Part shown: positions 48,387-64,000 of the stretch, one piece after another
Layout: each line of letters opens with the position of its first letter
Numbering within the stretch: position 1 is the stretch's first letter
Source of the DNA: an uncultured Pelagibacteraceae bacterium
Lineage (GTDB): Bacteria > Pseudomonadota > Alphaproteobacteria > Pelagibacterales > Pelagibacteraceae
NCBI GenBank assembly: GCA_902591535.1
Contig: CACJBA010000002.1
Coordinates: 1 to 64,000, forward strand
DNA: 64,000 nt
Direction: 5' to 3'
Translations under genes and position numbers: made by a program
Notes under the pieces: model-generated
What the model was told of the DNA's origin: nothing
Database searches by the model: none
What the model saw: only the letters and a program-made list of their open reading frames with translations

Positions 48387-48854
48387 CTATTTTTTAAGTT
48401 TATTTGAAAAATGTAAATTATCGAACTTAAATTTAGACTTATTTTCTTCTATAAAATTATTCATTATCAGTATTTTTTCCTTTTCAAATTCAGCAACTTT
48501 TCTTAATTCAAGGTTGATATATAAAGCTAATACTTCAGTTGTAGAAGATAAAAGATTTTTACTTTTTTCGTACATTTCTAATTTATAATGCAATCTTTTT
48601 TTATCATGGTCACAATAGGATAAATAAATATCTACTTCTTCTCCTTCTTTAACCTCATTATTATAAGTAGTATGAGTTTCAACAACCATCGTACTTCTTT
48701 TTGTGTTTATTGCAGCCTCTTCACCCATTTTAAAATTAGACAGCATTTTTTCCGCAGCTTTATCAAAAACTAAAATATAATACGATAAATTCATATGATT
48801 ATTATAATCTGTCCATTCATTAATAATTTTTGTAGTTTTAAGAAGTACAGACAT
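48387..48854 (-). CDS. Hotdog-fold acyl-CoA thioesterase, betainyl-CoA-thioesterase-like
   Basis: This 155-residue protein has the 4HBT pattern 'EWTDYNNHMNLSYYILVFDKA', with the catalytic acidic residue in this region, then 'YNNEVKEGEEVDIYL' and a 'HDKKRLHYKLEMYE' strand. It resembles the thioesterase partnered with carnitine dehydrogenase (CdhB type). A role in releasing glycine betaine or another acyl group from CoA is possible but inferred. It overlaps the ParA gene by one base. Confidence 0.75.
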   Translation of the reverse strand: MSVLLKTTKIINEWTDYNNHMNLSYYILVFDKAAEKMLSNFKMGEEAAINTKRSTMVVETHTTYNNEVKEGEEVDIYLSYCDHDKKRLHYKLEMYEKSKNLLSSTTEVLALYINLELRKVAEFEKEKILIMNNFIEENKSKFKFDNLHFSNKLKK

Positions 48855-49495
48855 TACTGATTTAATTCTTGCAAAATTTGATCTGTTAGCTTTTTAATTT
48901 CATCTACAGCACTCCCTTTTCTTTGTTTTTCAATTGCTGTTTTGCCTTCACCCATAGACGAGGCATATATTTGACGATTGCCAATTATTGTATCAACTGC
49001 AGGTACATTTAAGCTTTTGATATAATCATTTGTTTTAATAATTTGTTTTGATCTTTGGTTGGCTCGATTAATTTGTATCATAATTTTTTTATTTGCTTTT
49101 TTTGCAATCTCTATGATTGCTTCTGTTGCCCAAAAATCTACATGTGATGGTGTCATTGGAATTAAAACTAAATCGGAAGCTTCAATTGATGGTCGAGCAT
49201 CAGATTCTATTTTGGGAGGAGTATCTATTATAACAATATCATGATCTTTTTTTAAATTTTTAGACTCATACTGTGCACCCCAAAGACTAGCAGTTTTAAA
49301 ACTCAAATTGTCGTTTGAAATATTTTTTTCAGACCTGATCATAAACCACTGTCCGAGACTACCTTGAGGATCAGTGTCAACAACAGCAACTTTTAAATTT
49401 TGAAATTTAATAAAACCCATTGCTAAGTGAATTGCCAAAGTTGTTTTTCCAGTGCCACCTTTTTGTTGAGAAATAGTTATAACTTTTGAGAGCAT
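48854..49495 (-). CDS. Orphan ParA/MinD-family ATPase
   Basis: This 213-residue Walker-type ATPase has the deviant Walker A KGGTGKTT at about residues 12-19, 'VVDTDPQGS' and 'IIDTPP'. No ParB or parS-like repeat is visible nearby, so it is probably not the chromosome-partition ParA; single ParA proteins position other cellular cargo. It is the first gene of the - strand run, divergent from the rhodopsin operon. Its stop overlaps the thioesterase start by one base. Confidence 0.85.
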   Translation of the reverse strand: MLSKVITISQQKGGTGKTTLAIHLAMGFIKFQNLKVAVVDTDPQGSLGQWFMIRSEKNISNDNLSFKTASLWGAQYESKNLKKDHDIVIIDTPPKIESDARPSIEASDLVLIPMTPSHVDFWATEAIIEIAKKANKKIMIQINRANQRSKQIIKTNDYIKSLNVPAVDTIIGNRQIYASSMGEGKTAIEKQRKGSAVDEIKKLTDQILQELNQ

Positions 49496-49598
49496 ATTCT
49501 TAGATAATATATTTATAAAACTGATCTAGAAATATAATTTTAATTTCAATCTGAACGATAAAAAATTTTTTCTACTTTTAATTGAATTTTTTTTTTAG

Positions 49599-49627
49599 AG
49601 TTTAATAACTCGCTTATTTATTAAACT
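49599..49627. promoter_or_regulatory. 10-bp perfect inverted repeat upstream of the rhodopsin operon
   Basis: Arms AGTTTAATAA (49599-49608) and TTATTAAACT (49618-49627) are separated by 9 bases in the 240-base divergent gap between parA-like and rhodopsin genes. The rest of the gap is long A and T runs with no reading frame I can support. The repeat fits a dimeric regulator's operator better than a terminator, since no T-run follows. No factor is identified. Confidence 0.45.
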
Positions 49628-49735
49628 ATAAACTTATAAAAAATATATATAAAAAAAATAAAGAATTTTTATTTCAATTTGTGTCAAAGTTACAGAATAA
49701 TTAGTTTTTTTTAACAGACTATTTAGAAAGGGTGA

Positions 49736-50440
49736 ATGAATAAGTTATTGTTACCAGCGGATATAGTAGGAGGGTCATTTTGGTTAATCTCTGTTGCTAT
49801 GATTGGTGCAGCAATTTTTTTCTTTTTAGAGAGAGGTAGAGTTTCACACAGATGGGGTACGGTAATGAACCTTGTTGGAGTGATAGCTTTAATGTCTTCA
49901 ATTCATTATTTCTACGCAAAAAACTTGTGGGTGTTAAATGGACAGGCACCTACTGCATTAAGATATATCGATTGGCTATTAACTTTCCCACTTACGATAC
50001 TGACTTTTTATGTCATGCTAAAATCTGTTTATGATGTGAAGAGAGGAATGTTTTGGAGATTATTAGTTGGGACTCTAGTTTGGGTAATCGCACAATTGTT
50101 AGGAGCTTATGGTTATATGAGCGTAACATTGGGCTTCTTAGTTGGAATTGTTGGATGGCTATACATTATTGGTGAGCTTTATATGGGTGATACTGGTAGA
50201 GCTAATAGTGCATGTAACAATGAAAGTGTTCAAATGGCATTCTTCGCTAACAGACTAATAATCACAATTGGTTTTTCAATTTATCATATTGGATATTTTA
50301 TAGAGCATTTAGCGGGCGGAGCTAACATCAATAGTTTAAACGTGATTTATAATTTAGCAGACGTATTAAATAAAATTATATTTGGAATGATTATTTATAG
50401 CGCTGCACTTCAAGATACTAAGAAAGGGGCACAACAATAG
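49736..50440 (+). CDS. Divergent microbial rhodopsin with a D-T-T motif
   Basis: This seven-helix retinal protein of 234 residues is related to proteorhodopsin but lacks the usual N-terminal signal peptide. Aligned by eye, retinal Lys is K213, counter-ions R76, D79 and D209 are present, His57 matches PR His75, and T83 matches PR T101. The proton-donor position (PR E108) is T90 and the colour-tuning position (PR 105) is T87, neither Leu nor Gln. Helix F has Phe180 and His184 where PR has Trp and Pro. It could be a slow proton pump or a sensor. An AAAGG site precedes the ATG closely. It heads a long operon. Confidence 0.9.
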   Translation: MNKLLLPADIVGGSFWLISVAMIGAAIFFFLERGRVSHRWGTVMNLVGVIALMSSIHYFYAKNLWVLNGQAPTALRYIDWLLTFPLTILTFYVMLKSVYDVKRGMFWRLLVGTLVWVIAQLLGAYGYMSVTLGFLVGIVGWLYIIGELYMGDTGRANSACNNESVQMAFFANRLIITIGFSIYHIGYFIEHLAGGANINSLNVIYNLADVLNKIIFGMIIYSAALQDTKKGAQQ

Positions 50441-50453
50441 GGAGGTTTAATTT

Positions 50454-52436
50454 ATGACTAAAGGAGCAGATATAATAGCAGGAATAATATTACTAGCGTT
50501 AGCAATAGCAATTATTGTTTATTTGTTACACTGGCTTTACAGAAGATCTTCAAAAGAAGTTTCATTTGTGAGAACAGGAATGTTGGGAGAAAAAGTTGTA
50601 ATATCTGGAGGAGCCTTTGTCTTACCTATTATTCACAACATTACTCAAGTAGGTATGCGTACTTTAAGTATAACAATTAAACGAGGTGGAGATAAATCTT
50701 TAATCACGAAAGATAGAATGAGAGCAGAACTAGTTACAGAATTTTTTACAAAAGTTCCACCTGAAGCTAAAGCAGTATCTACTGCAGCCCAAACATTAGG
50801 AAACAGAACTTTAGATCCTGAACATTTAAGAGAAGTTGTTCAAGGTAGATTTGCAGATGCACTTGGAGAAGTTGCTGCGAAAATGACTCTTGATGAGATA
50901 CAAGAAAACAGAGGTACGTTTGTTAAAGAAGTTAGAAAGATAGCAGATGAGTCTATTGGTCATACTGGTTTAGCTCTAGAGACTGTTTCAATAATTTCTT
51001 TAGACCAAACACCTATTGAGCAATTTAATCCTGCAAACACTTTTGACTCTCAAGGTTTAACTCAGTTAACAGAACAAATTGAAGCAAGAAAGAAAAAAAG
51101 AAACGACATCACGCAAGATACAAAAATTTCTATAGAAAACAAAAATTTAGAAACAGTTCAAAAAGAATTGCAGATTAAAAAAAATGAAGAATTTTCAAGG
51201 TATCAGCAAGAAAGAGAAATAGCTGTACAAAAAGCTAATGAAAGAACTGAAACTATAAAGAAAAAAGCTGAAAAAGAGCGAGAAGCAGAAGAGTCTGAAA
51301 TTAAAAATCAAGAAGCTGTAGAGGTTGCAAAAATCTCTCAAAACCAGGTAATTGAAGTAGAGAGAAAATTAACTGAAACAAGATTAATTGAAGAAATAGA
51401 AAAAAGAAGAAGAGAGCAAAATGCACTCGAACAAGACGCAGCTTTAGATATCAGACAAAAGAATTTGGATACTGAAATTAAAATTTTGGATCTAGATAAA
51501 GAGAGCGAATATGCTAGGCTGGAAAAACAAAGACTAGTAGATACTAAACGAGCTCAAGAGAAGGCGGAAATTATTAAAGAACAATCTGACAAACAAAGAG
51601 AGTCAGAGGAAGCACAAATTATCGCAGAGCAACAAATTAAAAATGCAAAAATTGCGCAACAAAAAAATATTGATGCGCATAGAATTGAGTCTGAAAAAGA
51701 AGTTAGAACTTTAGATATAGAGAAAGCCAAAAGAATTCAAATTGAAGAACATCAAAAAGAACTTGAAATACTTGAAAAATCTAAAGAAGTTCTAAAATCT
51801 AAAGCAGACGAGCAAAATACTAGAGCTAAAGCAGTTGAAGCTGAAGAAAAAGCAAATTCAACAAGATATATCGAAAAAGCTGAAGGAATGAAACAGGTTG
51901 ACGTTATATCTGCTGCATCTAAAGCAGAGCAAGATAAATATGAAACTATGGCGGCGAAATTAAGATATGAAATTGATGCTGCTGGTAAAGAAGCTCTTAA
52001 TATGGCTGAAAATGTTAGAAGTGATGCGAGCAGAAGAAGCGCTTTAAGAAATAAATTAGCTGAGAAAATAGAGTCTATAATCAGAGAAAGTGTTAAGCCA
52101 ATGGCAAATATTGGGGATATCAAAATTGTTGATGTTAGTGGCTTACCAGGTTTCAGTGGAACAGCTGGCGGAGGGTCTGCTGGTGGAGGCAAAGACGTTT
52201 CAGGTGGCAAGAGCTCAGGTAACTTAGCAGATAATGTTGTAAGCTCAGCATTAAGATACAGAGCTCATCAACCATTTTTAGACAGTCTTCTGAAAGAAAT
52301 CGGAATGAATCCTGGAGAAATTAGCAACATTAGAAATATCTTAGGTGATTATGGTAATCCTAAAAAAGATTATCACATGAACTTTGGTGAAAATGTTAAC
52401 GCAGATTTAAAAGGAGACAAGAGTCCAAAAAAATAA
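50454..52436 (+). CDS. Flotillin-like SPFH-domain membrane scaffold protein
   Basis: Flotillins assemble in membrane microdomains and organise other membrane proteins. The 660-residue protein has an N-terminal membrane helix (about 8-28), an SPFH domain (about 35-210), a long Glu/Lys-rich coiled coil (about 210-500) with repeated 'EIKNQEAVEVAK' and 'EREAEES' type stretches, a Gly-rich linker (about 562-590), and a unique C-terminal tail of about 60 residues. A strong GGGAGG site lies 8 bases before the ATG, 13 bases after the rhodopsin stop, so the two are surely cotranscribed. Confidence 0.9.
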   Translation: MTKGADIIAGIILLALAIAIIVYLLHWLYRRSSKEVSFVRTGMLGEKVVISGGAFVLPIIHNITQVGMRTLSITIKRGGDKSLITKDRMRAELVTEFFTKVPPEAKAVSTAAQTLGNRTLDPEHLREVVQGRFADALGEVAAKMTLDEIQENRGTFVKEVRKIADESIGHTGLALETVSIISLDQTPIEQFNPANTFDSQGLTQLTEQIEARKKKRNDITQDTKISIENKNLETVQKELQIKKNEEFSRYQQEREIAVQKANERTETIKKKAEKEREAEESEIKNQEAVEVAKISQNQVIEVERKLTETRLIEEIEKRRREQNALEQDAALDIRQKNLDTEIKILDLDKESEYARLEKQRLVDTKRAQEKAEIIKEQSDKQRESEEAQIIAEQQIKNAKIAQQKNIDAHRIESEKEVRTLDIEKAKRIQIEEHQKELEILEKSKEVLKSKADEQNTRAKAVEAEEKANSTRYIEKAEGMKQVDVISAASKAEQDKYETMAAKLRYEIDAAGKEALNMAENVRSDASRRSALRNKLAEKIESIIRESVKPMANIGDIKIVDVSGLPGFSGTAGGGSAGGGKDVSGGKSSGNLADNVVSSALRYRAHQPFLDSLLKEIGMNPGEISNIRNILGDYGNPKKDYHMNFGENVNADLKGDKSPKK

Positions 52437-52452
52437 AATTAAATAAAAAATT

Positions 52453-52842
52453 ATGAGTGTGGAATTAGAAAACTGGGCAAAAAAATACGAAGAGTTTACA
52501 AATAATGATGAAACCATCAAAGCGATGGCAAAATATTATACTTGCTCTTTTATGTTTGACATGGAAAGTGCAAAAGTAATTATTGAAATGCATGATGGAA
52601 AAGTAAAAAATATTAATACCAATCCATCACCTTTAGACCCTTATGATTTTGCATTAAGAGCATCAGCCAATACGTGGAAAGAATTTGGCCAGCCGATACC
52701 AAAACCTATGTATCATGGAATTTGGTCAGCTAGTTTTTTAAGAGATTTAAAAATTGAAGGTAATCACTTAATCCTTATGAAAAATCTAAGAAACTTTACT
52801 GTTCAATTTGAATTATTAAGAAAGACAGGAGTGCCGGTTTGA
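52453..52842 (+). CDS. Small protein, possibly SCP2-like, function unknown
   Basis: This 129-residue soluble protein is not one I recognise with confidence. The middle and end ('PYDFALRASANTWKEFGQPIPKPM', then 'LRDLKIEGNHLILMKNLRNFTVQF') loosely resemble the SCP2 sterol-carrier fold, which binds hydrophobic or CoA-linked ligands in a pocket. It could be a carrier or an enzyme accessory. It lies 16 bases after the flotillin gene and 25 bases before the hydrolase gene. Confidence 0.6.
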   Translation: MSVELENWAKKYEEFTNNDETIKAMAKYYTCSFMFDMESAKVIIEMHDGKVKNINTNPSPLDPYDFALRASANTWKEFGQPIPKPMYHGIWSASFLRDLKIEGNHLILMKNLRNFTVQFELLRKTGVPV

Positions 52843-52867
52843 TGTCTAAAAATTGGAGGATTTTAAA

Positions 52868-53722
52868 ATGGTAAAACATCATGATGTAGTTGGGCGATAT
52901 GTAACAATTGAAGTTGATGATTGTGAGTATAAGGTATTTTATCTTCAAAATGGAAAAGGCATACCTTTAATTTGTCAACATACAGCAGGATGTCATAATC
53001 ATCAATGGAGAGGACTATTGGAAGACCCAGAAATAACAAAAAATTATAATGTGATTGCATATGATTTACCTCGTCATGGGAAATCGGATCCTCCACATAA
53101 TAAAGAGTGGTGGAAAGAAGAATACAAACTTACTGCAGAGCATTATTGTAACTTCATAGTCAAATTATGTGATGCTTTGGGTCTACAAAATCCAATTTTC
53201 ATGGGGTCGTCTTTTGGAGGAAATGTTGCTTTACAACTAGCATTAAGACATCCAAATAAATTTAGAGCTGTAATTCCAGTAGAGGCAGCTGATTATGCCC
53301 CAGGATTTTATCTTGATTGGTGGAGACATCCTCACGCAAATGCTGCTCAGGTTTGTGCAAGCGGTACATGGGATTTGATGGCACCACAGTCACCAGAAAA
53401 AGATAGATGGTTAACTTGGCATTATTATACTCAAGGTTCTGAGGCTTTTAAGGGTGATTTATACTTTTATTCTGTAGATCATGATTTAAGAAAAGAATTA
53501 CAAAATATTGATGGCCATAAGTGTCCAGTAATAATGCTTACAGGAACTTATGATTATTTAACACCCCCAGAGGCCACAGAAAATACCGCGCGACAAATCA
53601 AAGGTGGAGTTTACATAGAAATGGCTGATATAGGCCATTTTCCAATGAGTGAAAATCATGAAGTTTTTAGAGTTTATTTAATGGAAGCCTTAAAAATAAT
53701 TCAAGAAAGGACTAGTAAATAA
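52868..53722 (+). CDS. Alpha/beta hydrolase
   Basis: This 284-residue hydrolase shows 'QHTAGCHNHQWRG' as the oxyanion region, nucleophile Ser115 in G-S-S-F-G, an acid in 'GTYDYLTPPE' and a His in 'DIGHFPMSE'. The ATG at 52868 follows a GGAGG site (52855-52859), which is why I prefer it to a TTG upstream. Haloalkane dehalogenase, esterase and C-C hydrolase activities all occur in this fold. It sits just before the DMFase-like subunits, so it may act on a related amide or ester. Confidence 0.88.
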   Translation: MVKHHDVVGRYVTIEVDDCEYKVFYLQNGKGIPLICQHTAGCHNHQWRGLLEDPEITKNYNVIAYDLPRHGKSDPPHNKEWWKEEYKLTAEHYCNFIVKLCDALGLQNPIFMGSSFGGNVALQLALRHPNKFRAVIPVEAADYAPGFYLDWWRHPHANAAQVCASGTWDLMAPQSPEKDRWLTWHYYTQGSEAFKGDLYFYSVDHDLRKELQNIDGHKCPVIMLTGTYDYLTPPEATENTARQIKGGVYIEMADIGHFPMSENHEVFRVYLMEALKIIQERTSK

Positions 53723-53742: not shown

Positions 53743-54162
53743 ATGGATAAAGATAAAACTGGAGTTCAATTAAATTTAGGTCACACCAGTACGGATGATT
53801 TCATCACAGAGAAATATGTTTTGCCTCTGTTAAGAGATGAAAAAATGAGAAATAAGCTAATAGAAGAACACAGAGCAACTCCCGTTGGTAAAGCACCCCA
53901 ACCTCACAAAGGTCAGCCAATGGTTGAGCACAGTAAGGAATTACAAATTGTACTAGATAAACTTAGACGACAGCCGATGCATATAAAAAAATATGTAACA
54001 ATATGCAAAAAAGATTTTGAGGATTATAGAATTGGAATAGTTACAGGTGTTAGAGGCGAACCTGTAGAAATATTAGAAGACTCATATTCTTCAGAGGAAG
54101 CCTGTGAGCATGCAATATTTTTGAAAAGAATTTTAGATTTATTAGAAAGACACGGTGGATAA
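53743..54162 (+). CDS. DMFase-like small subunit
   Basis: This 139-residue protein matches, from memory, the small (alpha) subunit of N,N-dimethylformamidase (about 130 residues): 'LRRQP' in the middle, 'FEDYRIGIVTGVRGEPVE', and a helical 'SSEEACEHAIFLKRILDLL' end. It has no catalytic motif of its own and is expected to form an alpha2beta2 complex with the next gene, 4 bases downstream. It has a GAGGAG ribosome site. Confidence 0.72.
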   Translation: MDKDKTGVQLNLGHTSTDDFITEKYVLPLLRDEKMRNKLIEEHRATPVGKAPQPHKGQPMVEHSKELQIVLDKLRRQPMHIKKYVTICKKDFEDYRIGIVTGVRGEPVEILEDSYSSEEACEHAIFLKRILDLLERHGG

Positions 54163-54166
54163 TTAA

Positions 54167-56524
54167 ATGTTAAGAATAACTGGTTACAGTGACAAATATA
54201 CTGCGTTCCCTGGAGAGGAAATAAAATTTTATGTTAATGCTGAAAAAAATGAAAATTACGAAGTTCAAATAGTTAGATTAATACATGGTGACACGAATCC
54301 TGAAGGTCCTGGTTATAAAGATGAAGAGGTAGGAGCTGAATGTAATGGAAACTATCAAGGAAGAAATCAAAAAATTCATGGTGGTTCTTATTTAATTGTT
54401 CCTCAAGATGATAGACTAAATACATCTAGTTTTACTCTACAAGCTTATATTTTTCCAACAACTCCAGACAAAGGTAGACAAGGAATTTTAACTAAGTGGA
54501 ATCAAAAAACTAAAAGTGGTTATGGACTTTTTATTGATGAAAATGCATGTTTATCAGTATCAATAGGAGATGGTAACGGACAAATATCGGCACTTTCAAG
54601 TGAAAAGAAATTAATGAGAAAAGTTTGGTATTTAGTAGCCGCTTCTTATGATGCTGAAACAGGTAAGTTAAAACTTTATCAAGAGCCTTGTGTGACACCG
54701 ACAAATGGTGGATTAGGTATGTCACTTCTTCATCCGGCAGATGAAACGACATCCTATGTAGAGTCAATTAGCAATTTAAAGCCAAGAGCGAATGATGCTC
54801 CTTTCTTAATGGCAGCTTGTTCTTTAAATGACAGATCAGGCAGACATATACATGGTGCACATTATAAAGAAGCTACAAGCCCTGTTGAGTTACCTGAGCA
54901 AACTTTAACTTATAATGGTAAAATCGATAGACCAAGATTAAGCAAAAAAGCATTATCAAAATCTGATATAGAGTCTCTTGCAAGAGGATTTACTGATTGT
55001 ACATCTGAGTTAAGATCTGAAGTAATTGGTGCATGGGATTTCCATGCTAATATCTCTAAAAATATAGCTTCTACGCACATTGTAGATAAAACCTCAAATC
55101 ATTTAAACGGATTTATAATAAATTTACCATGTCGAGGAATGACAGGTTACAATTGGACTGCAGATGAAATGGTGTTTCATCACAAACCCGAGGAATATGG
55201 GGCTATACATTTTCATGATGATGATATTGATGATGCAAGATGGGATGTAGATTTCACTTACAAAGTCCCAGATTTAATAAGAAGTGGAGTTTATGCTGCT
55301 AGGTTAAGAATTAATGGTGAGGAGTCAGCAGAAACTGAGGATTTTATACCATTTGTAATCAAACCACCAAAAGGCAAAACAACTTCTGATCTTCTTTTTG
55401 TTTTACCAACAAATAGTTACATCGCTTACTCAAATGATAATTTAGGAACTAATTCTGTTGTAGCACAATTACTAGCCGGAAAAGTTCCTGTTTTAGGTGC
55501 ATCTGATTTATATCTTAATGAACATAGAGAATATGGCTTATCAACTTATTCACAACACTCCGATGGAAGTGGTGTAGCAATTTCATCAAGATTAAGACCA
55601 ATTCTTAATATGAGACCAAAATATAGACACTGGTTATCTCCTTCACTATGGCAATTGAATGCAGATCTTCATTTAACAGATTGGTTAGAAGAAAAGAATT
55701 TTGATTTTGATGTCGTTACTGACGAAGATTTACATCTAGAGGGTGTTGAACTGTTAAATCGTTATAAATGTGTTTTAACTGGATCACACCCAGAATACAG
55801 TTCTGAAAAAATGTTAGCTGCTTATGAACAATATCAATTGAACGGTGGAAGATGGATTTATTTAGGATCAGATGGATTTTACTGGATAAGCGAATATCAC
55901 CCTGACAATCCAAATATAATTGAAGTTAGAAAAGGTGAGGCAGGCACAAGAGCTTGGACTGCAAACCCTGGAGAGTATAACAACGCATTTGATGGAAAGT
56001 ATGGAGGGATGTGGAGAGCAAGAGGAAGAATACCTTCAAAAGTTTGTGGACTTACATTTACTGCATATGGATTTGATGTAAGTTCTTATTACAAAAGATG
56101 TCCTGATAGTAAAAGACCAGAATGTTCATGGATATTTGATGGAGTTGGTGAAGATGAGGTAATTGGAGATTTTGGTTTAGTTGGTGGGGGTGCAGCTGGT
56201 TTAGAGCTCGACAGATATGATTTAGAATTTGGGACACCTCATAATGCTTATTTATTAGCAAGGTCTGAAAATCATACTAATCTTATGATGCAGGTAAACG
56301 AGGAAATTCACTTTACTGTAAGAGGATATTATGGGGGTGGAACAGAAAACCCGATGGTAAGAGCAGATATGATTTATTATAAAACTCCAAATGATGGAGC
56401 GCTTTTTGCTCCAGGCTCGTTGTCATTTTGTGGAAGTTTATCTTACAATAACTACAACAATAACGTTTCAAAAATTCTTGAAAACGCAATTAGAGGATTT
56501 TTAAAAGAAGGTCCTTTACCATAA
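54167..56524 (+). CDS. N,N-dimethylformamidase-like large subunit (mononuclear-iron amidohydrolase)
   Basis: DMFase hydrolyses dimethylformamide to dimethylamine and formate; relatives act on other small amides. The 785-residue chain has an N-terminal beta-rich region, a LamG-like domain (about 85-275), and the catalytic C-terminal domain from about 300. Candidate iron ligands are Tyr421 (SYIAYSN), Tyr461 (STYSQHSDGSG) and Glu543 (GSHPEYSS). Their spacing (40 and 82) is close to the Tyr399/Tyr440/Glu521 iron site I recall for the Paracoccus enzyme (41 and 81). The true substrate in a marine bacterium is unknown. The stop overlaps the next gene by one base. Confidence 0.8.
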   Translation: MLRITGYSDKYTAFPGEEIKFYVNAEKNENYEVQIVRLIHGDTNPEGPGYKDEEVGAECNGNYQGRNQKIHGGSYLIVPQDDRLNTSSFTLQAYIFPTTPDKGRQGILTKWNQKTKSGYGLFIDENACLSVSIGDGNGQISALSSEKKLMRKVWYLVAASYDAETGKLKLYQEPCVTPTNGGLGMSLLHPADETTSYVESISNLKPRANDAPFLMAACSLNDRSGRHIHGAHYKEATSPVELPEQTLTYNGKIDRPRLSKKALSKSDIESLARGFTDCTSELRSEVIGAWDFHANISKNIASTHIVDKTSNHLNGFIINLPCRGMTGYNWTADEMVFHHKPEEYGAIHFHDDDIDDARWDVDFTYKVPDLIRSGVYAARLRINGEESAETEDFIPFVIKPPKGKTTSDLLFVLPTNSYIAYSNDNLGTNSVVAQLLAGKVPVLGASDLYLNEHREYGLSTYSQHSDGSGVAISSRLRPILNMRPKYRHWLSPSLWQLNADLHLTDWLEEKNFDFDVVTDEDLHLEGVELLNRYKCVLTGSHPEYSSEKMLAAYEQYQLNGGRWIYLGSDGFYWISEYHPDNPNIIEVRKGEAGTRAWTANPGEYNNAFDGKYGGMWRARGRIPSKVCGLTFTAYGFDVSSYYKRCPDSKRPECSWIFDGVGEDEVIGDFGLVGGGAAGLELDRYDLEFGTPHNAYLLARSENHTNLMMQVNEEIHFTVRGYYGGGTENPMVRADMIYYKTPNDGALFAPGSLSFCGSLSYNNYNNNVSKILENAIRGFLKEGPLP

Positions 56525-57193: not shown

Positions 57194-59260
57194 ATGTCAG
57201 AAAAGTCTGTTTGGTTATTTTTATTTATTTTACTTTATGCAGCATTTTGTTTTTTTTGGGGAGTAAGAGGATCAAAGTTTAATTCAGAGAATCCTCAAAA
57301 ATATTATTTAGCTGACAAAAATGTTTCCTCGTGGGTATTTTTCTTTGCTGCAACAGCTGCAACATTTGCTGGTTTAACTATAATTTCTCAAACAAGTTTA
57401 ATATACAACGATGGATTTCAATATGTTGGAACGGCATTTATAGCGATTACTGTTCCACTTGGTAGTATCTTTTTCTTTAAAAGACAATGGATGTTAAGTA
57501 GGAAGTTTGGCTACATAACACCTGGTGAAATGTATTATGACTATTATAAAAGTGATACCTTAAGAATAATTACAGTTCTTGTAACTTTTTTTGTAGCAAT
57601 ACCTTTGTTAGCAGTTTTTTTTGGAGCAACAGGTTTTTTGGTAAACATTTTGTCTGATGGATACATTTCAAGAGATCTTGGGATGTGGGTTATTTCAACA
57701 ATTGTATTATTTTATGTTACAAGAGGAGGTTTTAAATCTGTTGTTAGTGTAGGCGTGGTACAATCTTGGTTATACTTTTTAACCGTTATTATACTCGGTC
57801 TTATTATTTATTTTTTTGTAGGAAATTTTGAAACTTTTGGAAGAGCATTATCTAAAATTGCAACTACACCTATAAGTAATTGGGGTAATACTCAAGGATA
57901 TGGAGGAGGAGATTTCAATGGATATTTTGCATTACCTGGTGTTATTCAATGGGTAGCAGGCCTAGGAAAAAATCCTGCAGTTGGAGGACCATGGACTGCT
58001 ATGATGATATTTACTTTTGCTATTTCTTTTATGGGTGTAGTCTTATCTCCATCTTTCTCAATGTGGAGCTATACCGCAAAACATCCAAAAGTATTCTCTT
58101 ATTATCAAATTTGGGGTTCAGCGGTAGTAGTTGGCATTTTATTGTTTGTATTTGCTACTTATCAGGGTGTAGGCGCTAGTTTGTTGGGAGCAAATTCTGA
58201 GATAAATAGTAGTGGTTTATCAATAAACAAAATACTCCCAGAAGTATCATCAGAAGATCATTCACTGCTAATTTATCAAATTATAAATTTAATGGATAAC
58301 AGTGCTTTATGGGTAACTGGATTGTTAGCCGTAGGGGTAATAGCAGCAATTCAGTCTACTGCAGCGGCTTTTTTAATTACATCAGGTGGCATTATTACCA
58401 GAGATCTTTATAAAACTTATGTTAATAAAAATATTTCCTGGGAAAATGAATTAGTAGCAGTTCGAATAATTACAATGTTAATATTTTTAGCTGCACTTTA
58501 TCTTGCAACATTTGCAAAACCTGCCATGGTAATTTTTAGTGGTATATCAATATCAATAGCTTTTCAGTTTTTAATCGTTCTATTAGGCTTAATTTGGTTT
58601 CCGTGGATAACCAGAGGGGCTGCAATATCTGGAATTATCATAGGAATTATTATTGTAATTTTAACAGAGACTATCGGACAACAAATTTCAGGTAATAGAT
58701 TACCATGGGGAAGATGGCCATTAACAATTCATTCTGGTGTTTGGGGATTGTTATTTAATGTATTTATATGCTTTTCTGTTTCAGCTTTTTCTTCACTAAC
58801 AAAAATAGATTCAGATAGAAATCATAGACAAAAATATCATGACTTCTTAAATGATCACATGGGTCTTCATCCAAGTAGAACTAAACTTAGATCATTTGCT
58901 TATGTAATTGCTTTGATATGGTTATTTTTTGGTGCAGGTCCTGGACAAGTTCTTGGAAATAGTTTTTTTGGTGAACCAAGTGCAGGATATGAAGAATGGA
59001 TTTTAAAAATACCTTCTTTATGGGGATATCAATTAATCTGGTGGTTTTTTGGTATAGGTTTAATTTGGTTCTTGGCTAGTAAAATGGATCTATCAACTTT
59101 ACCCAACAAACCTATACAAGCAAACGATTTATATAAGAGTCCAGATGAAATATCAGGAGAAGTTAATTATATTGATAAACTAGGAACAGGCTACGGTTGG
59201 ATTTTAATACTAATTGGTATGGCTATTTTTGCAATAATCTTTTACGTATATTTTGTTTAG
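57194..59260 (+). CDS. Sodium:solute symporter (SSS family), enlarged
   Basis: This 688-residue permease has the LeuT-type SSS core of about 13 helices starting near residue 5 ('FILLYAAFCFFWGVRGS') and extra C-terminal helices to about 685. SSS transporters couple sodium or proton entry to uptake of sugars, amino acids, choline-like compounds or organic acids. It is the only transporter in the operon, so it is the best candidate for bringing in the pathway substrate. It is about 150-200 residues longer than typical SSS proteins. Confidence 0.88.
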   Translation: MSEKSVWLFLFILLYAAFCFFWGVRGSKFNSENPQKYYLADKNVSSWVFFFAATAATFAGLTIISQTSLIYNDGFQYVGTAFIAITVPLGSIFFFKRQWMLSRKFGYITPGEMYYDYYKSDTLRIITVLVTFFVAIPLLAVFFGATGFLVNILSDGYISRDLGMWVISTIVLFYVTRGGFKSVVSVGVVQSWLYFLTVIILGLIIYFFVGNFETFGRALSKIATTPISNWGNTQGYGGGDFNGYFALPGVIQWVAGLGKNPAVGGPWTAMMIFTFAISFMGVVLSPSFSMWSYTAKHPKVFSYYQIWGSAVVVGILLFVFATYQGVGASLLGANSEINSSGLSINKILPEVSSEDHSLLIYQIINLMDNSALWVTGLLAVGVIAAIQSTAAAFLITSGGIITRDLYKTYVNKNISWENELVAVRIITMLIFLAALYLATFAKPAMVIFSGISISIAFQFLIVLLGLIWFPWITRGAAISGIIIGIIIVILTETIGQQISGNRLPWGRWPLTIHSGVWGLLFNVFICFSVSAFSSLTKIDSDRNHRQKYHDFLNDHMGLHPSRTKLRSFAYVIALIWLFFGAGPGQVLGNSFFGEPSAGYEEWILKIPSLWGYQLIWWFFGIGLIWFLASKMDLSTLPNKPIQANDLYKSPDEISGEVNYIDKLGTGYGWILILIGMAIFAIIFYVYFV

Positions 59261-59266
59261 GTGATT

Positions 59267-60439
59267 ATGAATTTAAATAATTTTACATTTAATACAACAT
59301 CAGGAATTAGATTTGGCAATGGTACGTCTAAAAGTTGTGTTTCAGAAATATCTCAAAAACTTGGACAAAATATTTTATTTATTACAGACAAAGATTTAAT
59401 GTCATTAAAATTAACAGAACCTACTTTAATTGAATTAAACAAATTATCCTCAAAAGTAGAAGTTTTCCAAGATGTTGAGGCTGATCCTTCACTAAAAACA
59501 CTAATGAATGCGATAGAGATTGGGAAAAAAAATAAAATTACAGGAGTTATTGGTTTTGGAGGCGGGTCATCAATGGATGTTGCTAAGCTAACTTCACTAA
59601 TCCTAGGTTCAAACGAAAATATTGAAGAGGCATGGGGTGTTTCTAACGCTAAAGGTCCAAGATTACCTTTAATATTAGTTCCAACCACAGCAGGAACAGG
59701 TTCGGAAGTGACTCCTATATCTATAATTACTGTAGGAGAAGAGGAAAAAAAAGGTGTATCTTCTCCAATTATTCTTCCAGATATAGCTATTTTGGATCCA
59801 GAATTAACCGTTGGTTTACCAGCCCATACTACTGCAGCAACAGGTATTGATGCAATGGTTCATGCAATAGAAGGTTATGCCTCTGCAAATAAAAATAACA
59901 ATCCAATATCGAAAATGATTGCTGTAGAGGCACTGAAGCTTTTAGGAGGTTCAATTGAAAAAGCTGTTTTTGAAGGCTCAAATATTGAGGCAAGAGGCAA
60001 TATGTTATTAGGTGCAATGTTAGCAGGAAAATCTTTTGCTAATTCTCCAGTTGCTGCTGTTCATGCCCTAGCATATCCTATTGGAGGAACATTTCATGTA
60101 TCCCATGGTCTTTCAAACTCTCTAGTTCTCCCATATGTTTTAAGATTTAATAGTGTAGATAATAAAGCTACAAAAGACTATTCAGAGTTAGCTCCGTTTC
60201 TTTTTCCAGATATCGATATGAGTAAGGGAAGCCAAGCTATTTGCAAGGAATTTATAGATAGGCTTGAAAATTTGTCAAAAAAACTTGGTCTTCCACAAAA
60301 ATTAAGGGAGGTCAATATTCCTAAGGAAGCATGTAAAAAAATGGCTTCAGATGCAATGAAACAAACCCGTTTATTAGTAAATAATCCGAGAGAGGTGACA
60401 GAAAATGACGCTCTTAACATTTATGAGGCTGCCTGGTAG
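59267..60439 (+). CDS. Iron-type alcohol dehydrogenase
   Basis: This 390-residue enzyme is a group III (iron-dependent) alcohol dehydrogenase with 'GGGSSMDVAKLTS' as the NAD site and 'GIDAMVHAIEGY' and 'HALAYPIGGTFHVSHG' carrying the metal Asp and His ligands. Members include 1,3-propanediol, lactaldehyde and 4-hydroxybutyrate dehydrogenases. The ATG at 59267 follows an AGGTG site; a GTG two codons upstream is less likely. Next to a lactonase-like gene it recalls the blcBC gene pair of gamma-butyrolactone use. Confidence 0.87.
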   Translation: MNLNNFTFNTTSGIRFGNGTSKSCVSEISQKLGQNILFITDKDLMSLKLTEPTLIELNKLSSKVEVFQDVEADPSLKTLMNAIEIGKKNKITGVIGFGGGSSMDVAKLTSLILGSNENIEEAWGVSNAKGPRLPLILVPTTAGTGSEVTPISIITVGEEEKKGVSSPIILPDIAILDPELTVGLPAHTTAATGIDAMVHAIEGYASANKNNNPISKMIAVEALKLLGGSIEKAVFEGSNIEARGNMLLGAMLAGKSFANSPVAAVHALAYPIGGTFHVSHGLSNSLVLPYVLRFNSVDNKATKDYSELAPFLFPDIDMSKGSQAICKEFIDRLENLSKKLGLPQKLREVNIPKEACKKMASDAMKQTRLLVNNPREVTENDALNIYEAAW

Positions 60440-62339: not shown

Positions 62340-63464
62340 TTAAAAATATTTTACCTTGATGTCTTTCATTCCTTTTTTTTCAATAATTTTTTCTCTAATT
62401 TTTTTATCTCTATTTATCTTATCAAAATCTACAATTTTTATTTTATCAACCTTAATATTAGATTTTTTATTTTCATTTAGAAAGTTTTGATCAGATTTAG
62501 CTATACTTTTTTCACTACAAATGAGAGTTTGCTCTAATCTCATCTCTTGAGCTTTCTCGAGTGGTATTTCTTTAAACTTTAACATGTCACCAGGTTTTGC
62601 TTGTCCCAATTTCCAAAAAGCAGCTGATGGAACTGTATATGGTACTATAAATCCTCCCATACTAGGTCCATCGTTAACTAAAATAATTGGAGTTTGCCCA
62701 GCAATATTAATTGCACCAATAGGATATCCTTGGTCTATAATATTTGATGGTTCGGCTCCGTGTTCTAAACCTTTATTGGTTGCTTTTTCAGTGAATGTCC
62801 AATTGGGACCTTCTAATCTATATCCTGTTCTATCGCTTTTAGATTGTAGTTTCCAATTCGTATTTAAAAACATTTTATGACCATTATCATCTATCCAATC
62901 ATCGTTTGGTCCTTTTACTACTTCTACTTCCCAAGTTTTATCTTTTGAAAATTTAGGAATAAATTCATTTTTAATTTTTCTTCCAATCTCTGATTTTGAT
63001 TTATTAATTTTAATTTCTTGGCCATCCTGAATAGCTTTTCCGTCTATACCTCCGACTCCAGCTTTATGAAAAGTAGATCTTGATCCAAGCCAAGGCTTGC
63101 TATCGATACCTCCTGAAAAAGCAATATAGGATCTTGCTCCTATAGTCGCAAAACTCATTTCTAATATTTGGTCCTTTTCCACCTTAATACTTTCCCAAAG
63201 AGATATAGGTTTTCCATCAATCTTTGGATCCATATTTGCCCCAGTAATTGCTATAACTGCATCATTTTCAAATTTCAGGCTTGGACCCATAAACTGACAT
63301 TCTAAAGCGGGTGCACCAGGATCATTTTGTACTAGAACGTTTGCAAGTCTAAATGACCAACTATCCATAGGACCTGATGGAGGAAAACCTTGATTTAAAG
63401 TTCCTATTCTTCCTGGATAATCTTGAACTGAAGTTTCTAAACCTTTTTTAATTACTTTGATCAT
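62340..63464 (-). CDS. pxpC: 5-oxoprolinase subunit C family (biotin-dependent carboxyltransferase-like, KipA)
   Basis: PxpC with PxpB and PxpA hydrolyses 5-oxoproline to glutamate using ATP; the family is also called allophanate hydrolase subunit 2/KipA. The 374-residue protein has 'VQDYPGRIGTLNQGFPPSGPMD' at the start, 'AITGANMDP', 'YIAFSGGID' and 'GPSMGGFIVPYTVPSAA'. A Lys-rich tail of about 50 residues follows the domain. No PxpA gene is inside the window. Confidence 0.88.
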   Translation of the reverse strand: MIKVIKKGLETSVQDYPGRIGTLNQGFPPSGPMDSWSFRLANVLVQNDPGAPALECQFMGPSLKFENDAVIAITGANMDPKIDGKPISLWESIKVEKDQILEMSFATIGARSYIAFSGGIDSKPWLGSRSTFHKAGVGGIDGKAIQDGQEIKINKSKSEIGRKIKNEFIPKFSKDKTWEVEVVKGPNDDWIDDNGHKMFLNTNWKLQSKSDRTGYRLEGPNWTFTEKATNKGLEHGAEPSNIIDQGYPIGAINIAGQTPIILVNDGPSMGGFIVPYTVPSAAFWKLGQAKPGDMLKFKEIPLEKAQEMRLEQTLICSEKSIAKSDQNFLNENKKSNIKVDKIKIVDFDKINRDKKIREKIIEKKGMKDIKVKYF

Positions 63465-63466
63465 TG

Positions 63467-64000
63467 TTAAAATCTCTTATTTGAATCTATCGTAGTTAAC
63501 CATTTTTTATAATTCTTCACAGAAAATTTTTGATAATCAACAATATTGTAGTCATAAGACCCATCTTCAATTTTATTATATACATGATCAAACTCTTCAT
63601 AACTTGTTGGAACAAATTTAACTCTATCGCCAGGTTGAAATAAACAAATATTATTTTCAAAAACTGGAAAACTTTTTTTTGTATCCCAAATAGGTACAGG
63701 AATTATTCCAAATATTTGATAACCACCGGGCAATCTATCGGGATATATACAAGTAGAAGCACCTCCCATTCCTACTGTGCCTTTAGGTGTCCATGTCCTT
63801 GGAGGATTATATTTAGGAACTGTTAATTTACATCGAGGGTCTAACGCCATCATAAATGGTAAGCCAGGCCAAAATCCAATTGCAGCAACCCAATATTCTG
63901 TTGATGAGTGAACTCTAACAAATTGTTCAGTGCTTTCTAATTCATTTAGTTCTGCAATAAGTTCTGGATCTGGCTTTTTTTTTGCAATTTTTTTGGAGTA
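63467..64000 (-). CDS. pxpB: 5-oxoprolinase subunit B family (KipI), 5' end outside window
   Basis: The - strand frame is open from the stop at 63467 to the window edge, giving 177 visible residues; the start lies beyond 64000. The family segments are 'IGFWPGLPFM', 'TWTPKGTVGMGG', 'IYPDRLPGGYQIFG' and 'LFQPGDRVKF'. An internal ATG at 63853 is not the start, because the conserved segment 'STEYWVAAIGFWPGLP' lies before it. It is 2 bases upstream of the PxpC gene. Confidence 0.88.
   Translation of the reverse strand, partial: YSKKIAKKKPDPELIAELNELESTEQFVRVHSSTEYWVAAIGFWPGLPFMMALDPRCKLTVPKYNPPRTWTPKGTVGMGGASTCIYPDRLPGGYQIFGIIPVPIWDTKKSFPVFENNICLFQPGDRVKFVPTSYEEFDHVYNKIEDGSYDYNIVDYQKFSVKNYKKWLTTIDSNKRF

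Follow-up and report, generated by a model that had tools for sequence, protein, structure and literature searches.

Rhodopsins with a DTT motif, Thr at the colour-tuning position 105 of proteorhodopsin (PR) and no signal peptide have been described from deep SAR11 bacteria at Station ALOHA (Olson et al. 2018, PMC5864233) and, as FArhodopsins, from Pelagibacterales genomes (Haro-Moreno et al. 2023, PMC10308929). According to the available parts of the first paper, DTT ranks among the top two pump motifs by frequency at the station, where it occurs mostly at 200-1000 m, and T105 is present in 1440 of 4483 sequences. When SAR11 DTT-T rhodopsins were produced in E. coli, neither a light-driven pH change nor apparent retinal binding was seen, an added leader brought no improvement, and working pumps converted to DTT-T lost their pumping (PMC5864233). 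One SAR11 DTQ-Q rhodopsin pumped in E. coli (PMC5864233), so pumping may still occur where the carboxylate is lacking. In addition, failure in E. coli may reflect misfolding or failed insertion (PMC5864233, PMC10308929), and the absence of the partner flotillin from this host is a caveat raised in the second paper. The accessible sections of that paper also place FArhodopsins shallower in the Mediterranean, report the highest recruitment of HIMB59 FArhodopsins in upper photic water, and describe freshwater relatives as mostly devoid of the retinal lysine (PMC10308929). The family is abundant in dim ocean layers and matters as an open functional question, not as a new find. Among available structures, the closest by sequence are PDB entries 9r21 and 9r23, titled flotillin-associated rhodopsin. 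The PsFAR structure (9r21) has been public since July 2025, and our search found no paper on 9r21-9r23; preprints and most subscription journals lay outside its scope, so one may exist.

The window analyzed here is a stretch of 64,000 nucleotides from an uncultured Pelagibacteraceae bacterium (contig CACJBA010000002.1), whose assembly comprises 1.15 Mb and is 78.7% complete. The gene at 49736-50440, on the forward strand, is almost certainly that of a Pelagibacterales FArhodopsin, a PR paralogue encoded directly before flotillin. Its 234-aa product matches Pfam Bac_rhodopsin (94 bits), with no family returned by an NCBIfam search, carries the DTT motif and a Thr at PR position 105, retains K213 and has no leader peptide. 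All of these traits are found in the FArhodopsins of PMC10308929, which, as far as the available text goes, also share with this locus a same-strand adjoining flotillin, a canonical PR elsewhere in the genome and similar cluster genes. Flotillin follows after 13 nt in the window and after 16 nt there, and no essential difference was seen. The reference of that study, SAG AG-390-L03, encodes a protein 94% identical to ours, and SCGC AAA288-N07, named in PMC5864233, one that is 92% identical; from the Olson group, which has the same motif, the window protein differs in sequence details only, judging by the portion of the paper available. Furthermore, identical proteins are encoded in the Pelagibacteraceae single-cell genomes AG-891-I18 and AG-390-C23. 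The window protein is an already described kind, its clade, motif, colour-site Thr, absent leader and gene neighbourhood having been published between 2018 and 2023. The original prediction had called this combination of residues uncommon, which is wrong in view of the ALOHA counts given above (PMC5864233), and had regarded a known clade with exactly these positions and function as a refutation; the Pelagibacterales FArhodopsins, in the text at hand, are such a clade with respect to the positions only (PMC10308929).

The same family is encoded at 50 further loci in public genome contigs (51 with the window). The median pairwise dN/dS was 0.030 over 306 FArhodopsin pairs versus 0.119 over 366 PR pairs, values that are approximate because dS is high and the count was restricted to pairs in the dS range 0.2-1.5, the incomplete sequences L040 and L046 being left out. 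FArhodopsin is under strong purifying selection and, with 50 further loci, the observation is not due to chance. For the alignments we used the window protein, 50 of the 51 loci from public genome contigs and 30 PRs of the same order; L051 (a 27-residue match) and L053 (a copy of the window) were kept out of all of them. An 83-row tree, which also omits L040 and L046, placed 49 FArhodopsins and 9r21 on one side of a single branch with 100/100 support. A long-branch warning concerned both the PDB reference rows and the joining of 9r22 to the long stem of the FArhodopsins, and the two rows used as outgroup did not fall on one side of a branch, so the position of the FArhodopsin clade among PRs is unsure. 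Three scans of viral contigs for rhodopsins that might deepen the alignment gave no relative. The window motif, D79, T83 and T90 with T87, fits the DTT, DTL or DNI motifs of FArhodopsins and the Thr at 105 of those from Pelagibacterales. Across the 51 FArhodopsins, motif and position 105 read DTT-T in 38, DTT-S in four, and ETT-T, DTT-Q and DTL-Q in two each, with single cases of DTT-I, DNI-Q and DNV-Q. The retinal lysine K213 was present in all 50 sequences that reach the site, R76, H57 and W80 in 51/51, T83 and D79 in 49/51, and D209 in 49/50. The two ETT-T proteins, L022 and L037, carry Glu in place of the counterion Asp at residue 79.

A flotillin with Band_7 and Flot domains (50454-52436, forward strand) begins 13 nt after the rhodopsin stop and is the sole Flot match of the 78.7% complete assembly. 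A flotillin homologue lies downstream on the same strand in all 51 family loci, window included, with a gap, counted up to the first possible start codon, of 3-22 nt in 44 of them and 30-67 nt in six more distant ones. Co-transcription of the two genes has been reported for AG-390-L03 (PMC10308929, available text). Upstream, a divergent ParA/MinD-like ATPase (48854-49495, reverse strand) has opposite-strand homologues in 44/51 loci. It was not found in the six more distant loci L038, L039, L044, L045, L047 and L048, of which L044 has only about 1 kb of upstream sequence, nor in L040, where the contig breaks off at the rhodopsin. When 44 loci, with the window among them, were compared, the AT-rich 240-nt spacer between the ParA-like gene and the rhodopsin (49496-49735) showed a few conserved patches, and a promoter scan of it gave four sites versus 5.7 expected in shuffles, none above chance. 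Downstream of flotillin, on the forward strand, follow a small protein without Pfam match (52453-52842), an alpha/beta hydrolase (52853-53722), a second small protein without Pfam match (53743-54162), an N,N-dimethylformamidase beta-subunit-like protein with a laminin-G-like domain (54167-56524), a sodium:solute symporter (57194-59260) and an iron-containing alcohol dehydrogenase (59261-60439), and, on the reverse strand, two carboxyltransferase-domain ORFs (62340-63853; CT_A_B, and CT_C_D matched by its profile end only). The published FAR cluster is partly alike, with dimethylformamidase-like, alpha/beta hydrolase, sodium symporter, iron alcohol dehydrogenase and carboxyltransferase genes here too. 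Its sterol-binding, PxpA-like and aldolase genes were absent among the 26 neighbours scanned and, as the window ends at 64000, may lie beyond it.

The residue assignments of the original prediction were confirmed by the alignment, on which the customary PR residue numbers were placed. K213, R76, D79, D209 and H57 fall in the columns of PR K231, R94, D97, D227 and H75, T90 in that of the proton donor E108 (E in 30/30 PRs), and T87 in that of the colour site 105 (Q in 27/30 PRs and L in 3/30), while F180 and H184 of helix F occupy columns that hold W and P in 30/30 PRs. The stop-to-stop frame opens exactly at the ATG at 49736, which makes a signal peptide impossible, as had been claimed. A shift in the helix C register was considered and rejected: helix C aligns without gaps and the T90 column holds E throughout the 30 PRs, so no carboxylate is moved to the donor site. 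The carboxylate at position 108 is thus absent, T90 standing in its place. Additionally, we found changes that the original prediction had not mentioned, namely V102F (F84), M134W (W116), G137A (A119), G138Q (Q120), E142A (A124) and Y164G (G146), besides the adjoining flotillin gene.

These changes were not spread evenly over the retinal pocket, and this split is what the present analysis adds. Counting sites fixed in both groups, 7/8 ring-half positions were changed, compared with 0/10 in the Schiff-base half and 54/127 overall; the position lists, which we take to reflect the bacteriorhodopsin and PR structures, were written after several changes had already been seen, so the Fisher p values (0.010 and 0.005) serve for description only. 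The count excludes ring sites 87 and 148, which are not fixed in both groups, and the SAR11-type group omits L044, L045, L047, L048, L040 and L046. As judged from sequence, the ring end of the pocket is rebuilt and the Schiff-base end unchanged, which points to residues and ligands worth testing. F84 (V102 in PR), W116 (M134), Q120 (G138), H184 (P201) and F180 (W197) are fixed in 45/45 SAR11-type sequences. In AlphaFold models of Pelagibacterales FArhodopsins, four conserved residues would intersect retinal (PMC10308929, in the text available); our alignment suggests that these may be F84, W116, Q120 and H184, with F180 for W197. In this regard, L136 and P202 of GPR, which flank the retinal ring (PMC11322631, accessible part), align with V117 and H184 of the window protein. 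An AlphaFold model that we built from 27 FArhodopsin sequences was poor (pLDDT 51.6), and the Foldseek search made with it served for PDB titles, since matches of so weak a model prove nothing alone.

The comparison with PsFAR suggests how the pocket may have changed. PsFAR shares 132 of 229 residues with the window protein without gaps, belongs to the same 100/100 clade, lacks a leader and keeps K213, but it has Phe at the H57 site, His at 84, Gln at 87, Met at 90, Met at 116 and Glu at 120, and it retains W180 and P184. The latter two are also kept in L044, L045, L047 and L048, so the tree suggests that helix F changed later, on the SAR11 branch. In PDB 9r23, PsFAR carries the double mutation H84V/E120G, and both positions align gaplessly with F84 and Q120 of the window protein, which indicates that its makers targeted the same two places. 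Each of 9r21 and 9r23 contains five chains of one sequence, which fits a pentamer.

Taken with the fixed flotillin neighbour, this pocket leads us to propose, with a probability of about 0.55, that the protein is a retinal-free, light-independent partner of flotillin in membrane microdomains that keeps the PR fold. The larger side chains of F84, W116, Q120 and H184 at the place of the ring would prevent all-trans retinal from being held and the protein from pumping, and loss of the cytoplasmic proton donor would be a second reason for the lack of pumping. A PR-like oligomer would sit with flotillin in membrane microdomains, and this assembly could organize or regulate neighbouring membrane proteins. 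For the window protein itself we infer retinal loss, the oligomeric state and the microdomain role as the most likely condition. This proposal is close to what Haro-Moreno et al. suggested, as far as the available text shows (PMC10308929). A role as phospholipid scramblase or lipid-packing protein of flotillin rafts, by analogy with actinorhodopsin, which scrambles phospholipids as a retinal-independent pentamer (PMC12805836), would suit the five chains of 9r21. It is nevertheless highly improbable, as the canonical PR of the same cell might scramble too and the available text of PMC12805836 contains neither 'flotillin' nor 'FArhodopsin'.

A role as scaffold only would make the fixed lysine (50/50) and the counterion site hard to explain. 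One conceivable answer, though a quite unlikely one, is that a ligand slimmer than retinal, for instance a medium-chain fatty acid or a shortened apocarotenoid, is bound by K213 and the intact counterion site, which would make the protein a lipid-responsive part of the flotillin domain. The split pocket would agree with it, and so would the binding of decanoate by retinal-free PR, where a salt bridge ties it to the retinal lysine and the slender chain needs less room than the ring (PMC11322631, accessible part); such a ligand is thus a live alternative. In the simulations of that work, however, the ring end was opened by decanoate, and closure was seen for the empty pocket only; moreover, the freshwater relatives mostly without the lysine (PMC10308929) and the failure to find an RPE65-type carotenoid oxygenase in the 78.7% complete assembly speak against it. 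It is more doubtful still that lysine and counterion site are kept for such an acyl or apocarotenoid ligand so that the protein may report the lipid state of the membrane to flotillin without light.

A light-active protein would bind retinal in its native membrane, with folding dependent on flotillin or special lipids, and act as a slow-cycling light sensor or weak pump. This is unlikely, although the ten unchanged Schiff-base-half sites, the invariant K213 and a Blh-like retinal-forming enzyme encoded in the assembly, so that retinal may be available, all favour it, as does the E. coli caveat of the missing flotillin (PMC10308929, available sections). The claim that the protein is not an ordinary proton pump was borne out, the donor being replaced by T90 and the expressed DTT-T relatives, even when fitted with a leader, not pumping in the available data (PMC5864233). 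The slow photocycle or weak pump predicted alongside it is unlikely given that these relatives showed no apparent retinal binding either. Several larger residues at the ring end, and the depth range of DTT at ALOHA (PMC5864233), though shallower in the Mediterranean (PMC10308929), argue in the same direction. Nor does the neighbourhood favour the suggested sensor: no transducer gene was detected by Pfam among the 26 neighbouring proteins (35797-63853), though a hybrid sensor kinase is reported in the Pseudothioglobus cluster (PMC10308929, available text).

The genome also encodes a canonical SAR11 PR (C1:73286-73933) of the same fold family and alike at the K, R, D, D, H and T sites, which differs in its 45% identity, DTE-Q motif, leader-like N-terminal stretch and V, M, G, W and P in the ring pocket. 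Mixed oligomers of both rhodopsins in flotillin microdomains, with the pump tuned for dim light, have been hypothesized (PMC10308929, accessible text), and we consider them rather unlikely. Eight of 397 genomes of the order, our own included, encode the window protein at 92-100% identity, the next match being, among the matches listed, at 50%. Each of the eight has two rhodopsin matches, the DTE-Q motif of the second being established for our own genome, but this co-occurrence is weak evidence because 354/397 genomes have some rhodopsin match anyway. W16, E32 and H57 are common to the window protein and PR, where the corresponding W34, E50 and H75 are, we assume, oligomer interface positions; PsFAR, on the other hand, has Phe at the H57 site, and 9r21 and 9r23 hold a single sequence, although there is no sign that a PR was offered. 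The upper photic recruitment of HIMB59 FArhodopsins (PMC10308929, available text) likewise speaks against this hypothesis.

Lastly, two loci of the family stood apart. In L046 the rhodopsin frame (1126-1743) is broken after about residue 170, which may be a sequencing error, and flotillin is present after a gap of 194 nt. The MAG casp150-mb.165 contains two FArhodopsins of different lineages on separate contigs (L031, DTT-S; L045, DNV-Q), pointing either to a mixed bin or to two copies.
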